Assembly: GCA_031274495.1 (NCBI GenBank)
Contig: JAISQB010000012.1
Location: 1-32,498 of the forward strand
Direction of reading: 5' to 3'
Length of the DNA stretch: 32,498 nucleotides
DNA from: Campylobacteraceae bacterium
GTDB taxonomy: Bacteria; Campylobacterota; Campylobacteria; Campylobacterales; Campylobacteraceae
The translations under genes and the position numbers were made by a program. The notes beneath the pieces were generated by a model. That model worked only from the letters and a program-made list of their open reading frames with translations, did no database searches and was not told the DNA's origin. Below are positions 15,605 to 25,280 of the stretch, piece by piece. Every line of letters begins with the position of its first letter. The stretch's first letter is position 1.

Positions 15605-17353
15605 ATGTTTGATTGTGCAACAAACACTTTAGTGGCAAATCCGTCTGCAAATTTAGTGAAGCTTGCTTCATCGGCAGCTAAGAATAGGACATCTCTTGCA
15701 ATACTTCGCTCTATAGCCGCTATCTTTTTTGCATCGTTGCTGCTTGTGGGATGCAGTAGTTTCAAGAGAGAAATTTATACGGCTACATTTATCAGCCATA
15801 AAGATTCGCAGATCATAATAAGCGCAGCGGCCGGTTCTGATATTCCTATTCCTACCGCGAGCAGAGCGGGTTATCTTTTTACGGATTGGCAAGAGGATGA
15901 CACAGCGGAGGCGATAGCAGGCGGGACTTCGTACAAGTTGACAAAAAATACAACTTTCAAAGCGCGCTATACCGCCATAACTTATACCGTTATATTTGGA
16001 TCGGATACCTTCAAAGGAACGCAAGATTCACCCATAACAGCTCCCGCTATCGCGCCTAAAAAAGGCTATATCGGCGTTTGGCAAGAGGAGGGCGGGGACG
16101 TAAAAGTGTCAAACGGCACCCTATACGCACCGACAAAAAACGCAACCTTTCAAGTGCAGTATGAAGAGCCCGTCAGAGTTGCTTTTTTTGACGCGGATCT
16201 TAATCTTTTAACATCTGAAGATATTTTGAATGGTGAGACTGTGATGTTTTGCAATACATGCTGCACGCAAACTTGGTACGAAGCAAACAAGTCAAGCCCG
16301 ATAAGTATACCTTTTGCGGCAAACGGCAGTATCAACTTTTATGCGATTCCAAATGTTATAGAGGTAGCCGATCAGGTGGGATTGGACGATATGCGAAATA
16401 ACTTGACCGGCAAATATGTATTGACAAAAGATATAGCGTTAAGCGATAGAGCCGCCGGCGTTGATAGTAATGGGTGGTTTCCCATCGGGCATGATTATGA
16501 CAACCGCTTCTCGGGCGTTTTTAACGGCAACGGACACAAGATAACGAAACTTTGGATGGATAGAACATATGGTAACTATACGGGGTTGTTTGGTTTTATA
16601 CAGGATGCGACGATAAAAAACCTAAGCGTTGAGATAGACAATAGCAACGGCGGCATTAGAGGGCATGACCGTGTCGGCGGCATCGCGGGAGTAGCTTACG
16701 ACCGCTCAACGATCGCCAACAGCCGTACCACAGGAAAGATCAGTGGAAGAGATTATGTCGGCGGCATCGCGGGATATGTAAGTGCCGGTTCGATAACCAA
16801 CAGCTACTTTAAGGGAAATATCGACGCGAGCGGTAACTATATCGGTGGCATCGCGGGACTTGCCAACGCCAAATCGATAATAACCGGCAGTTACTCCAAA
16901 GCCGGTATCGACGGACTAAATAATGTCGGCGGCATCGCGGGATACATCTACAGCGGCAGCATAAGCAACAGTTACTCTACGGCAAATATCAGCGGGGCAA
17001 GCAATGTGGGCGGTATCACGGGAAGCGCTTATTACGGCTCGATCATCACCAATAATGCCGCGCTGAGCTCCCTCGTTTTGGGCACGGCAAACTCCAATCG
17101 TATCGTCGGATATATAGACGGCGTCAATACGGTATTAAACAATATCGCCAAAATCGATATGGCGACGGACTTTACCGATTTTGTCGAAGGCAACGGGTAT
17201 TCTGGAACAGGAAAGACTGATAGCGTTTTGAAGTCTAAAGAGACTTATGCCAACAATCCGGTTAGCGGTGGTCTTGGCTGGAATTTTGAGACGATTTGGA
17301 AGATGGAGGCGGATAAAAACGGCGGGCATCCATATTTTTACTGGCAAGAGTAG
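15605..17353 (+). CDS. Surface lipoprotein with Flg_new-like and GLUG repeats
   Basis: This is a 582-residue protein. The start is fixed by GGAGGT upstream of the ATG and by the absence of later Met codons. It has an unusually long n-region, then a hydrophobic segment and lipobox LLVGC at Cys50. Residues 55-180 hold two copies resembling the Listeria-Bacteroides (Flg_new) beta-grasp repeat, for example PTASRAGYLFTDWQEDD. From about 355 on, five GLUG-type repeats with the consensus VGGIAGY...GSITNSYS occur every 27-28 residues and probably form a beta-helix. Such proteins act as adhesins or cell-surface structures. It ends in a flat C-terminus with no sorting motif. It is monocistronic, flanked by terminators, and next to the prophage. 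Confidence 0.75.
   Translation: MFDCATNTLVANPSANLVKLASSAAKNRTSLAILRSIAAIFFASLLLVGCSSFKREIYTATFISHKDSQIIISAAAGSDIPIPTASRAGYLFTDWQEDDTAEAIAGGTSYKLTKNTTFKARYTAITYTVIFGSDTFKGTQDSPITAPAIAPKKGYIGVWQEEGGDVKVSNGTLYAPTKNATFQVQYEEPVRVAFFDADLNLLTSEDILNGETVMFCNTCCTQTWYEANKSSPISIPFAANGSINFYAIPNVIEVADQVGLDDMRNNLTGKYVLTKDIALSDRAAGVDSNGWFPIGHDYDNRFSGVFNGNGHKITKLWMDRTYGNYTGLFGFIQDATIKNLSVEIDNSNGGIRGHDRVGGIAGVAYDRSTIANSRTTGKISGRDYVGGIAGYVSAGSITNSYFKGNIDASGNYIGGIAGLANAKSIITGSYSKAGIDGLNNVGGIAGYIYSGSISNSYSTANISGASNVGGITGSAYYGSIITNNAALSSLVLGTANSNRIVGYIDGVNTVLNNIAKIDMATDFTDFVEGNGYSGTGKTDSVLKSKETYANNPVSGGLGWNFETIWKMEADKNGGHPYFYWQE
16673..17060 (+). repeat. GLUG-coding tandem repeats, five units
   Basis: GTCGGCGGCATCGCGGGA or close variants start at 16673, 16757, 16841, 16925 and 17006, a spacing of 84, 84, 84 and 81 bases. 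The near-identical 18-base core at DNA level could allow unit gain or loss by recombination. Confidence 0.85.
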
Positions 17354-17641: not shown

Positions 17642-18346
17642 TTAAAAGATTACCTTTATGACCTTGCCTATGATCTGGAATACGCTTTGATCGTCCGGAT
17701 CTACTTCCCAGCTTTTATAATCAGCGTTTCGCGAAATAATCTCTAAAGTGCCTTTGTTTGATAGCTGTAAAATTTTGACCATAAGGACATTGCGCCAGTT
17801 TAGTACATACAGCCCATCTCCGCTGTAAGTGTTTTTTGTGATGTCAAAAATGACCCAGTTGTCGGGTAAAAGTATAGGGAGCATACTATAGCCGTCTACT
17901 TGGGTAGTACGCAAATTTGCAGCATTTGCCGGTGTTTTAAAGGCTATTTGAGAAATAACAAAAGTCTCATGTGTATCAAAAACTTCCGTATCTTCTATGC
18001 TTGATAATGTACCGGCTGAGGCACGCTGTGACAATATGTTTATGCGTACAGTCTCTTCTGTCTTGCTTGATGGATCTGCTGATTGATTGAACGTCTCCGA
18101 AATCTTTTTTATAGGACTTGGTGACACATTTTCCTGACTTAGTGACTCGTTCTCTTTTTCTAAAAAATAAGAGATATCTTTTTCGAGCGCTTTTGCAAGC
18201 TTTCCCAGAATAGAGAGAGTTATTTTTGCCTTGTCTATCTCGTAAGATTTAACGCTGTTTAGGGATACACCGGATTTTTTGGCAAGCTCTTCTTGATTCC
18301 AACCAAATTTTTGTCTGTGAAGTTTTATTTTTTGTCCTAAAGTCAT
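17642..18346 (-). CDS. Prophage repressor, HTH plus S24 (LexA/CI-type) peptidase domain
   Basis: The 234-residue protein has an N-terminal XRE-type helix-turn-helix (NQEELAKKSGVSLNSVKSYE). The C-terminal S24 domain carries a likely self-cleavage site Ala111-Gly112 (RASAGTL), the nucleophile Ser154 (DGYSMLP) and Lys191 (LMVKILQ). The Ser-Lys spacing of 37 equals that of LexA. It should keep the prophage silent by binding the operator at 18362-18379 and should be inactivated by RecA-stimulated self-cleavage during DNA damage. This differs from phage Mu itself, whose Repc lacks an S24 domain. AAGGA precedes the ATG. Confidence 0.88.
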   Translation of the reverse strand: MTLGQKIKLHRQKFGWNQEELAKKSGVSLNSVKSYEIDKAKITLSILGKLAKALEKDISYFLEKENESLSQENVSPSPIKKISETFNQSADPSSKTEETVRINILSQRASAGTLSSIEDTEVFDTHETFVISQIAFKTPANAANLRTTQVDGYSMLPILLPDNWVIFDITKNTYSGDGLYVLNWRNVLMVKILQLSNKGTLEIISRNADYKSWEVDPDDQSVFQIIGKVIKVIF

Positions 18347-22349: not shown

Positions 22350-22361
22350 GGAGGCGGCAAG

Positions 22362-22439
22362 ATGAAAAAACCGGTTTGGATGGTTGCAGATGACATTGGA
22401 AAGCCGAGCTTGGCGGATGAGGTGGTGTATGATAGTTAG
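22362..22439 (+). CDS. Micro-ORF, 25 residues
   Basis: GGGAGG seven bases before an ATG opens MKKPVWMVADDIGKPSLADE..., ending 11 bases inside the next ORF. Function unknown. The excellent SD and tight packing support expression. Confidence 0.45.
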   Translation: MKKPVWMVADDIGKPSLADEVVYDS

Positions 22440-22623
22440 GCTTACAAGAGCCTCTGTAGCTTTTGCCCTCGCACTGGGAGCTAAGAATATAGAGGAGTAT
22501 ATAAAAATTATGGAGGCGACAAATGGAGTGGGCTACGGCGTGTGTATTGTTAATAATCGTAATTATCGTGGAGGCGATACACGAAATATGGACGATAAAA
22601 AAGAGAGAAAGATGGAAAGGTAA
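22429..22623 (+). CDS. Hypothetical early phage protein, 64 residues
   Basis: The track's 22384 start is in-frame but unsupported; the ATG at 22429 has GAGGTGG just upstream, inside the end of the previous micro-ORF. The N-terminal part (TRASVAFALALGAKNIEEYI) is a plausible helical domain. The last 30 residues are polar and charged (DDKKERKMER) and overlap another good reading frame (22523-22627), so either frame could be the functional one there. Not recognised. Its place after B is where Mu carries small semi-essential early genes. Confidence 0.5.
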   Translation: MIVRLTRASVAFALALGAKNIEEYIKIMEATNGVGYGVCIVNNRNYRGGDTRNMDDKKERKMER

Positions 22624-22627
22624 ATGA
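22523..22627 (+). CDS. Micro-ORF encoding a single-pass membrane peptide
   Basis: TATGGAGGCGACAA precedes an ATG that opens 34 residues. A strongly hydrophobic stretch (WATACVLLIIVIIVEAI) is followed by a basic tail (KKRERWKGK), the layout of a one-helix inner-membrane peptide. It lies out of frame within the 64-residue ORF and ends ATGA-style into the next one. Function unknown. Confidence 0.42.
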   Translation: MEWATACVLLIIVIIVEAIHEIWTIKKRERWKGK

Positions 22628-22689
22628 TTAAGACAGACAATAAGAACAGCACAAAAACCTTTATGTGCGATCGCCGCAAAGAACATTAG
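22624..22689 (+). CDS. Micro-ORF, 21 residues
   Basis: It starts at an ATGA overlap with the previous stop and has AAGG upstream. It encodes a short polar, basic peptide (MIKTDNKNSTKTFMCDRRKE...). It may be only a coupling peptide. Confidence 0.28.
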   Translation: MIKTDNKNSTKTFMCDRRKEH

Positions 22690-22712
22690 AGAAATTAAAA
22701 GGAGATAAAAAG

Positions 22713-22910
22713 ATGAAAACTAACGGCGGAATTAATTTTTTCGGACTGCTGACGATAGTGTTTATAACGCTGAAACTGACCGAAGTGATCAACTGGTCTT
22801 GGATATGGGTGCTGGTATTTTTTTGGCTGCCGTTTGCAATTGTTATAGTTGCGGCTATAGCCATTTTTGTATGGCACATACTGAAATATCTTTACCAAAA
22901 AATAAAATAG
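22713..22910 (+). CDS. Two-helix small membrane protein ('transmembrane Fragile-X-F' type)
   Basis: The product has 65 residues from the ATG at 22713, preceded by AAGGAG; the track's longer start at 22665 lacks support. It opens MKTNGGINFFGLLTIVFITL and continues with a WSWIWVL turn and a second hydrophobic helix ending in KYLYQKIK. This matches my memory of small phage-associated membrane proteins annotated as transmembrane Fragile-X-F, whose role is unknown. Two inner-membrane helices with a positive C-terminus are predicted. Confidence 0.6.
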   Translation: MKTNGGINFFGLLTIVFITLKLTEVINWSWIWVLVFFWLPFAIVIVAAIAIFVWHILKYLYQKIK

Positions 22911-22956
22911 GCAGCGGCAGAGTTTAGAAATAAATAAAAAGCAAAGGAGAGACAAA

Positions 22957-23631
22957 ATGGCTAAGACGGACGGTAGAGGTTGGTGGTTTAACTACAGAGG
23001 AGATGCTGTACATCCTGACTTAATTAAGGCAGACGAAAAGCTCAAAGATGAGCTTGTAGAAAAGATCCTCGCGAGGGCGATAGAGGAGCGAGAGCGGATA
23101 GCACAGTTTGACAAATGGGTGGACGAAAGCGCAGGTAGCTTTATGAGCCTTTTGATGGATGTTTATGGTATAGACGCCAAAAGACAGACAAAAAAAGGAA
23201 ATCTAACGCTTGAGAACTACTCTAAAACAGCGAAATTAGAGATAAGAGCGCAAGATAGTGTCACGTTCGATGAAAAGCTGCAAATCGCAAAGATGAAGGT
23301 AGACGAATATCTTGAGGATATTACATCCAATTCTACGCCGGAAATCCGTACGCTTATAACAAGGGCGTTTGAAGTGGACAAAAAAGGCAAAATAGACGCT
23401 AAGCGGATTTTTGATCTTAAAAACTATGATATTCCCGACCTTAGATGGAAAGAGGCAATAGCGATTATAGACGATAGCAAACAGATAACACATACAACTA
23501 CTTACAAGCGTTTTTATATAAGAGACAGTGTAGATAAGCCTTATAAGTTTGTAGCGATTGATATAGCAAGTGTGGCAAATGTACAGGAGATGGATAATGG
23601 CGCAGAAAGGAGCTCCGCATTTAAGATTTGA
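22957..23631 (+). CDS. DUF3164 family phage protein
   Basis: The 224-residue protein has the DUF3164 hallmarks: RGWWFNYRGDAVHPDLIKAD at the start, the KKGNLTLENYSKTAKLEI core, AFEVDKKGKIDAKRI, and a C-terminal WKEAIAIIDDS/KRFYIRD region. The family is typical of early regions of Mu-like transposable phages; its function is not established. AAGGAGAGACAAA precedes the ATG. The end overlaps a 28-residue ORF. Confidence 0.8.
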   Translation: MAKTDGRGWWFNYRGDAVHPDLIKADEKLKDELVEKILARAIEERERIAQFDKWVDESAGSFMSLLMDVYGIDAKRQTKKGNLTLENYSKTAKLEIRAQDSVTFDEKLQIAKMKVDEYLEDITSNSTPEIRTLITRAFEVDKKGKIDAKRIFDLKNYDIPDLRWKEAIAIIDDSKQITHTTTYKRFYIRDSVDKPYKFVAIDIASVANVQEMDNGAERSSAFKI

Positions 23632-23683
23632 CAAGATATTGATGGTTGAATATTTTCAGAGCTCTCTGCGGAGGGCTCCATAA
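23597..23683 (+). CDS. Micro-ORF, 28 residues
   Basis: It starts inside the end of the DUF3164 gene with AGGAG upstream and encodes a basic peptide (MAQKGAPHLRFDKILMVEYF...). Its last codons form the hairpin at 23659-23678. Not recognised. Confidence 0.35.
   Translation: MAQKGAPHLRFDKILMVEYFQSSLRRAP
23659..23678 (+). other. Hairpin after the DUF3164 gene
   Basis: GAGCTCTC and GAGGGCTC form an 8-bp stem (one G-U) with a TGCG tetraloop. TAAAATATTTTTTT follows some ten bases later. It may be a weak terminator or a processing or stability element in the early operon. Confidence 0.4.
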
Positions 23684-23705
23684 AATATTTTTTTGGAGGT
23701 AAAAA

Positions 23706-23771
23706 ATGGGCGCGGAGTTATGTCGTTTTGCTGCAGCGGCAATAAAAAAACAAAATACGGGGGCGGTATGA
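23706..23771 (+). CDS. Micro-ORF, 21 residues, coupled to the ATPase gene
   Basis: A near-perfect GGAGGT with five-base spacing precedes MGAELCRFAAAAIKKQNTG..., and its TGA overlaps the ATG of the next gene (ATGA). It may act as a translational coupler. The track merged this area into an unsupported ATPase extension. Confidence 0.42.
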   Translation: MGAELCRFAAAAIKKQNTGAV

Positions 23772-24709
23772 GTACTATTTTTAATTTTCTGGAGGAGCAC
23801 AAATTAAACTCTAAGCACTTCATGGAGAAGGTAGAGTTTTATATTCCGAATTTTTTACCCCGCGGGCTGATAACAATGATATATGCAGACGGCGGACAAG
23901 GCAAGAGTTATCTATCCCTCTGTCTTGCAAAAAGGCTGCTTGCGATGGGCGTGGAGAGGCTTATATATCTGGATTTCGACAATCCCTTAAGTGTACTGAA
24001 AACAAGGGGAGTGGATACTCTTATAAAAATGCACAAAAATCTAAACTACATACAGCGCAGCTCTTTAGACCTGCAGCCGTTCGATTTGCTGCTTAAATTA
24101 GAGGAAAATGGTGTAAGCAGAGCTTATAACAACTGCGTCTTTATCGTGGACAGTATCAGAAACTTTGTAGATATCGGCAACGACGCTAAAGCAATGCGGC
24201 TTATGAATGCCTTTATGCGGATTAGAGATGCGGGCGCTACGATAATTCTTTTGCACCATGCAAATAAAGACGGCAGGAACTATCAGGGCAGCAACAATAT
24301 ACGAAATTCTTTAGACTGCATGTACAGCTTAGAGAAGCACTTATCCTTGCTTGGAGAGATAAATATAACCCTTGAAGTTATAAAAGAGCGCGCAGGTGTA
24401 AAAGATATAGGGTTTACTCTTTACACCTCTACTTTGGAGATGGTGGAGTTGGATATGCGCATTGCCAAGATGGAAGATAAGGATAGAGTATTTGTAGACA
24501 AAGCTCTGAAAATCCTTAATAAACCTATGAATAAGACGCAGTTCCTTAAGCGGCTTGGCTATGAAAAGGACGATAAGAGAGCGCGGGAGATGATAGAAAG
24601 GTTCGAGGGGGTATTTTGGGACAATAAAAAACAGAGTAATATATGTACCTATTATCCCCGTACAACTGTTACAACTTCTCCTATTGCGGGAAGTCATGAA
24701 ATTGCGTAA
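23768..24709 (+). CDS. RecA-fold (RepA/KaiC-like) ATPase or helicase
   Basis: The product has 313 residues from the ATG at 23768, which has GGGGGCGG upstream and overlaps the preceding stop; the track's 23693 start has no SD. Walker A DGGQGKS lies at about 41-47, followed by a RecA-like core with Walker B VFIVDSIRNF and the sensor strand ATIILLHHANKDG, as in RepA-type hexameric helicases and KaiC-like AAA_25 proteins. The C-terminal part (NKPMNKTQFLKRLGYEKDDK) looks like a small winged-helix domain. Phage Mu has no such gene. It may help replication or recombination, but the substrate is unknown. Confidence 0.7.
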   Translation: MSTIFNFLEEHKLNSKHFMEKVEFYIPNFLPRGLITMIYADGGQGKSYLSLCLAKRLLAMGVERLIYLDFDNPLSVLKTRGVDTLIKMHKNLNYIQRSSLDLQPFDLLLKLEENGVSRAYNNCVFIVDSIRNFVDIGNDAKAMRLMNAFMRIRDAGATIILLHHANKDGRNYQGSNNIRNSLDCMYSLEKHLSLLGEINITLEVIKERAGVKDIGFTLYTSTLEMVELDMRIAKMEDKDRVFVDKALKILNKPMNKTQFLKRLGYEKDDKRAREMIERFEGVFWDNKKQSNICTYYPRTTVTTSPIAGSHEIA

Positions 24710-24729
24710 AAAAGGAGATAAAAATAAGT

Positions 24730-24795
24730 ATGCAAAACATAAAAGATAGAGTTATCCGACTTAATGAAAAAATTAACAAGGAGGGGGCGAAATGA
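24730..24795 (+). CDS. Micro-ORF, 21 residues, coupled to gemA
   Basis: AAGGAG precedes the ATG of a charged helical peptide (MQNIKDRVIRLNEKINKEG...), whose TGA overlaps the GemA ATG (ATGA). The AAGGAGG inside its end is the gemA SD. It is probably a coupling ORF or a small early protein. Confidence 0.38.
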   Translation: MQNIKDRVIRLNEKINKEGAK

Positions 24796-25280
24796 AAGAG
24801 CGTAAAACGCACGGTATGACACCGCGACAAAAAAAGCTACACGCCTATTATGTCAAACTTTGCCACACGATAAAGAAAAATCGTTTTGCGGATGATGAGA
24901 CGAGACGCGATTACTTATGCTCTGAATTTAATGCTACAAGCTTTAAGGAGCTTACTATAACTGAGTTGCAAGAGGTAGCTAAGTTCTTGGGCTTTACCCA
25001 TAAAGAGTACAAAAAAGAAGAGGAGGTCAAAAGGATACAGCCTCCTAAAGGCGCAAAAATGCCTCCCTTAAGCGCGACACAAGAGCAGGTAAAGACTATA
25101 GAGGCTATCTGGTTTAAGGTTGCAAGGGAAAAAACGGAGCTTGCTCTAAGGAGATTTATCAACCGCATTGTTAAAAAAAGTCCTGTTTATCTGAACTGTT
25201 TAACAAGAGCACAGGCGCAGAAAATTATAACTGCGCTAAGCGAAATGCAAAAAGATTGGAGTAAGGCACATGATAGCTAA
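24792..25280 (+). CDS. gemA: GemA (Mu gp16)-like regulatory protein
   Basis: The 162-residue basic protein matches the GemA/DUF1018 family. It has an N-terminal helical part (TPRQKKLHAYYVKLCHTIKK) and FKELTITELQEVAKFLGF in the middle. The C-terminal half (RRFINRIVKKSPVYLNCLTR, then AQKIITALSEMQ) has the family's typical closing pattern. In Mu, gp16/GemA lies just before mor and affects host gene expression. The order is the same here: it overlaps the Mor-like gene by 11 bases. Confidence 0.72.
   Translation: MKERKTHGMTPRQKKLHAYYVKLCHTIKKNRFADDETRRDYLCSEFNATSFKELTITELQEVAKFLGFTHKEYKKEEEVKRIQPPKGAKMPPLSATQEQVKTIEAIWFKVAREKTELALRRFINRIVKKSPVYLNCLTRAQAQKIITALSEMQKDWSKAHDS

Follow-up and report, generated by a model that had tools for sequence, protein, structure and literature searches.

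Between the B gene and gemA of a prophage in a Campylobacteraceae genome, a patch of DNA carries many very small open reading frames (ORFs), and it raises the question of which of them are genes and which serve only translation or arise by chance. The window analyzed here is the whole 32,498-nucleotide stretch in which this patch lies, and a Mu-like prophage spans it from about 17.6 kb onward. In the early operon of this prophage, we identified the interval from 22362 to 24795 as the portion with variable accessory genes. Within it, ORFs are named below by the position of their first nucleotide. We are fairly confident that this early slot holds one certain small gene (22713), two or three probable orphan genes directly after B, and some ORFs that are probably not genes.

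The early genes of the prophage follow the order of phage Mu: ner slot, A, B, accessory genes, gemA, and mor. Upstream of the interval, the A transposase (Pfam rve, 6.1e-12; Mu-transpos_C, 1.9e-9) and the B ATPase (AAA_22, 3.8e-21, with a weak MuB_C match of 0.0076) were recognized; downstream, GemA (3.6e-18) and Mor (1.4e-7) were found. No Rfam family was detected in the window. Just left of the prophage lies a large lipoprotein-like ORF (15605-17353) with repeated G-I-A-G motifs. In Mu, the semi-essential early (SEE) region contains small genes whose role is mostly unknown (PMC4553209). This region, located between B and C and comprising kil, gp6-gp14, gam, gemA, and mor, has the same place and order as the interval. 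Of the Mu early proteins, however, only GemA and Mor are matched; in place of the others the interval has a membrane protein, a DUF3164 protein, and an AAA ATPase, and Gam was not seen. None of the larger proteins scanned gave a Pfam match to Gam. Comparison of the interval proteins with Mu Kil and Gam by blastp gave nothing meaningful, the best match, that of 24730 to Gam, having an E value of 0.016 over 12 residues. Kil, a 74-amino-acid septation inhibitor, occupies the same slot directly after B, but the best similarity to it was E 0.36 over 18 residues and, unlike Kil, 22523 and 22713 are membrane proteins.

All seven ATG-initiated ORFs that a sequence-only reading had proposed for the interval are present where it placed them. 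Their products measure 25, 64, 34, 21, 28, 21, and 21 amino acids in order of position. They do not form the single string linked by ATGA overlaps that had been described. Instead, they fall into three clusters divided by full genes, namely those for the 65-amino-acid membrane protein, the DUF3164 protein, and the AAA ATPase (Table 1). True ATGA stop-start overlaps occur only at 22523/22624, 23706/23768, and 24730/24792, the last of these leading into gemA. The overlap between 22362 and 22429 is 11 nt, and the TGA found there is outside the 22362 frame. The 22523 start lies within 22429, and the out-of-frame overlap runs to the 22429 stop; 23597 has no ATGA link to any ORF. A Shine-Dalgarno sequence at every ORF had also been claimed, and this applies to six of the seven in varying strength: it is good at 22362, 22523, and 23706, good but distant at 24730 (about 12 nt upstream), present at 23597, and moderate at 22429, whereas at 22624 it is practically absent (-3.5 kcal/mol).

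Table 1. Coordinates of small ORFs and neighboring genes in the prophage
Position	Strand	Feature	Supporting data
17642-18346	-	Repressor-like gene	
19044		75-aa gene in ner slot	
22362-22439	+	25-aa ORF	Shine-Dalgarno GGGAGGCGG, -11.8 kcal/mol; codon score above 99.7% of out-of-frame windows
22429-22623	+	64-aa ORF, orphan	Codon score far above out-of-frame windows
22523-22627	+	34-aa single-pass membrane peptide	+1 frame inside the 22429 ORF; own Shine-Dalgarno GGAGGCG (-9.3)
22624-22689	+	21-codon ORF, ATGA-joined to 22523	Shine-Dalgarno -3.5; codon score ambiguous
22713-22910	+	65-aa two-helix membrane protein, PHROG 1374	PHROG E 2e-16
22957-23631	+	DUF3164 protein	Pfam PF11363 E 8e-51; phrog_846 E 1.5e-55
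23597-23683	+	28-codon ORF over end of DUF3164 gene	Codon score negative; Shine-Dalgarno present
23706-23771	+	21-codon ORF, ATGA-joined to start of AAA ATPase	Shine-Dalgarno TGGAGGT (-10.6); codon score ambiguous
23768-24709	+	AAA_25 ATPase	Pfam 3.9e-9; phrog_6357 3.4e-99
24730-24795	+	21-codon ORF, ATGA-joined to gemA	Codon score above 99.7% of out-of-frame windows
24792-25280	+	gemA	Pfam GemA 3.6e-18; 25% identity to Mu gp16, E 2e-7

The number of ORFs after B exceeds that expected by chance. In the 363-nt gap that follows this gene (22350-22712), the plus strand contains four ATG ORFs of at least 20 codons, compared with a mean of 1.28 in 3,000 dinucleotide shuffles (P = 0.014). Three of the ORFs have a good ribosome site against 0.21 expected, a number reached in none of the 3,000 shuffles, and the minus strand of the same gap contains no such ORF. 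The first cluster is therefore beyond chance.

Coding potential was scored with a codon model trained on 8,790 codons from the window's own genes. Most of the small ORFs look coding by this score, as had been supposed. The values for 22362, 22429, 22523, and 24730 are reached by at most 0.3% of out-of-frame windows; those of 23706 and 22624 are ambiguous, since 2 to 7% of out-of-frame windows do as well. Coding at 23597 is not supported: its score is negative, below 99% of in-frame windows, and it is scored as noncoding. Once amino acid composition was removed, only 22713 and 22523 stayed clearly distinguishable as coding, and the synonymous-only score was uninformative for 22362, 22429, 22624, and 24730. 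On frames so short, codon tests are weak and no replacement for conservation.

Relatives of the ORFs directly after B were sought widely. For 22429, none was found in 50,697 phage records, in IMG/VR, or in 397 genomes of the class, and 153 genomes of the family yielded only weak matches; one of these, in G144, was rejected as a relative because of its chromosomal location. The phage records contained no relative of 22523, and 22362 had no PHROG match. A 26-nt match to 22624 in G139 lies outside any homologous ORF and was discarded as a homologue. This lack of relatives for 22429 and 22523 would fit an explanation in which 22713 is the only gene and the ORFs from 22362 to 22689 are nonfunctional remnants of decayed cargo or have opened by chance in a G-rich stretch that resembles ribosome sites. 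So would the uninformative synonymous-only scores of 22362, 22429, and 22624, the fast turnover of cargo in the slot (see below), and the AlphaFold prediction for the single 22429 sequence, which gave no confident fold (pLDDT, 51.5). We consider this explanation rather unlikely, as the three ORFs bearing Shine-Dalgarno sequences were matched by no shuffle, the minus strand has none, and the overall codon scores equal those of real genes. Under the reading we prefer, 22362 is a probable small gene or leader, and translation of 22429 is likely to be coupled to it. An earlier in-frame ATG for 22429 is located at 22390. The ambiguous 22624 is weak and perhaps spurious, and it is probably no gene.

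Where 22429 and 22523 overlap, the two frames can be compared directly. Synonymous codon choice in the shared stretch favors the 22523 frame (3.5) over the 22429 frame (-1.2). Ahead of 22523, the 22429 frame is probably coding; past that point, the frame is uncertain. This succession of the coding signal, in the 22429 frame first and then in that of 22523, is what would be expected if the two ORFs were one gene whose frame switches after about 22520 through an assembly error, a mutation, or a programmed shift. Such a single frameshifted gene seems improbable to us, given that 22523 has its own ATG and a strong ribosome site and that, by eye, no repeat or slip run was recognized there. Taking 22523 as an ORF in its own right, its peptide reaches a Kyte-Doolittle maximum of 2.33, and the PHROG 1374 hairpin gene follows 90 nt downstream.

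The remaining small ORFs lie near the genes for DUF3164, the ATPase, and gemA. The 23597 ORF is probably no gene; it overlaps a nonsignificant inverted repeat and a promoter-like match. The latter (TTGACA-17-TATTTT, 23628-23656) is situated where the DUF3164 gene ends, upstream of the ATPase gene. An RNA hairpin or terminator in the 23597 region was considered and rejected (fold z-score, -1.34), a terminator-like site being absent there. The 23706 ORF is possibly a coupling leader, and 24730 is possibly a micro-gene or a leader. Their very short products and the true ATGA overlaps into the ATPase gene and gemA are also in keeping with a more general proposal, that the small ORFs serve only to restart ribosomes at the next gene and that their peptides are inert. 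As an account of all of them, this is possible but doubtful: the ATPase gene and gemA have strong ribosome sites of their own (-8.0 and -11.9, respectively), and 22523 encodes a clear membrane helix, which coupling does not need. At its 3' end, the ATPase gene contains a 15-nt word, ACAACTGTTACAACT (24662-24676), that is identical in IMGVR_2875006304 (L038, 6256-6270) at a similar place before gemA. It may be a site or the trace of a common Thr-Val-Thr-Thr protein tail.

Among the small genes of the interval, 22713 has the best support, although the sequence-only reading did not list it. Its product aligns over residues 3 to 60 with positions 12 to 69 of the 89-position PHROG 1374 profile and carries a WSWxWVL motif. 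AlphaFold predicts a helical hairpin with helices at residues 9 to 22 and 35 to 64 (pLDDT, 84.8). The family is represented in 422 phage records at an E value of 0.05 or better, from phages of Klebsiella, Rheinheimera, Mycobacterium, Bacillus, Gordonia, Vibrio, and other hosts, and in 180 matching stretches of IMG/VR. Invariant in 46 aligned members are W28, W30, K21, F9, and the GLLTIVFI core, the invariance of the last being partly built in, as GLLTIVFI was a search pattern. The protein of the window conforms to the invariant core G-F-x-GLLTIVFI-x-LKL-x3-I-x-W-S-W, and shares GLLTIVFIxLKLxxxIxWSWxW with other PHROG 1374 proteins, but it has Phe in place of the near-invariant Pro at position 36 (Pro in 71 of 75 relatives). 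Elsewhere, PHROG 1374 bears the annotation names "transmembrane fragile-X-F protein" and "small Trp-rich protein." The former originates from a weak resemblance to PF10269, below the Pfam cutoff: the best score of the phage relatives was 22.0 bits against 23.1. The 22713 protein itself gave no match to this eukaryotic family (Tmemb_185A). A profile search of the PDB with the family gave only a weak match (E 0.63), and no function for PHROG 1374 was found in the literature searched.

Outside this prophage, the gene is mostly found next to genes of replication or of nucleotide metabolism. Neighbors of the family in annotated phages include DNA polymerase, a DnaB-like helicase, an RNase H-like protein, an exonuclease, MazG, phosphatases, and a methyltransferase, and no lysis gene was annotated beside it in the phage stretches examined. 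In IMG/VR, the neighbors with a named family are RecT-like, polymerase, exonuclease, ligase, dUTPase, nucleoside deoxyribosyltransferase, NUDIX, metal-dependent hydrolase, and formyltransferase proteins, the remainder having no named function; none belongs to a lysis family. GemA was found in none of 49 IMG/VR carriers, many of these records being fragments, and the Mu-like setting of 22713 is therefore unusual.

Related prophages were sought in IMG/VR with B, the transposase, the DUF3164 protein, the ATPase, 22429, and 22713 as queries, in GTDB contigs with B, in the family genomes with several proteins, and in the class genomes with 22429. No close relative sharing these small genes was found; the searches gave only prophages with different ones. 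The nearest, G137 (B 68% identical) and IMGVR_2875006304 (DUF3164 53% identical), have other small genes after B, and different small genes also fill the slot of G077, G024, G042, G107, G140, and G136. These Campylobacteraceae prophages (G024/G042, G077, G107, G140, G136, and IMGVR_2875006304) have A and/or B, the ATPase, and gemA or Mor in the same order, and they too contain small genes that overlap and often have a strong ribosome site. Unlike the prophage of the window, they have a Gam-like gene or, ahead of DUF3164, one that resembles nucleoside deoxyribosyltransferase. The ATPase also occurs in other Campylobacteraceae Mu-like prophages, with 53% identity in G022, G024, and G045. Across this region, G024 and G042 share about 90% identity, and G042 has an insertion of roughly 0.6 kb with two extra small genes. 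Because relatives differ in their small genes and G042 has this insertion, we conclude that the slot gains and loses cargo, which upholds the view of the site as one where a transposable phage carries variable cargo. Of the two small genes in the insertion (L161 versus L162), one encodes a membrane protein; at the edge of the insertion, a segment of about 55 nt is repeated imperfectly in inverted orientation.

Between A and B, two other prophages from this genus, G140 (G140:C31, L057) and G136 (G136:C76, L167), each have a micro-ORF that possesses a ribosome site and encodes a single-helix membrane peptide of 28 amino acids. Their peptides have 7 of 28 residues in common, which could be explained by hydrophobicity alone. 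Very small membrane genes thus occur in this lineage, and a 34-amino-acid membrane gene at 22523 is plausible, though not proven by them.

From these observations, we infer how the slot might operate. After induction, the early transcript would pass through it; 22362, 22429, and 22523 would be translated through tightly packed or overlapping starts, and 23706 and 24730 would most likely act mainly by delivering ribosomes to the next start. The membrane peptides 22523 and 22713 would enter the inner membrane during phage replication, where they might change a function of the host envelope or keep other phages out. A role in host takeover, exclusion, or anti-defense is plausible judging solely from position and membrane character. 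No PADLOC match was obtained for 22713, 22429, or 22523; PADLOC lists defense, not counter-defense. The most specific form of this idea, in which 22523 is a true out-of-frame gene within 22429 and acts with the 22713 hairpin on the inner membrane of the host during early lytic growth, is improbable. If it is true, this transposable phage would carry a nested membrane effector of a new type.

Overall, the site is an ordinary cargo slot, and 22713 is a new member of a widespread, uncharacterized family. Within a dense patch of tiny ORFs, those likely to be real could be separated from the unlikely ones. In distant phages, PHROG 1374 repeatedly stands beside genes of replication and nucleotide metabolism rather than those of lysis, which hints at a role early in infection, and this widespread protein is now placed among the early cargo of a Campylobacteraceae transposable phage.
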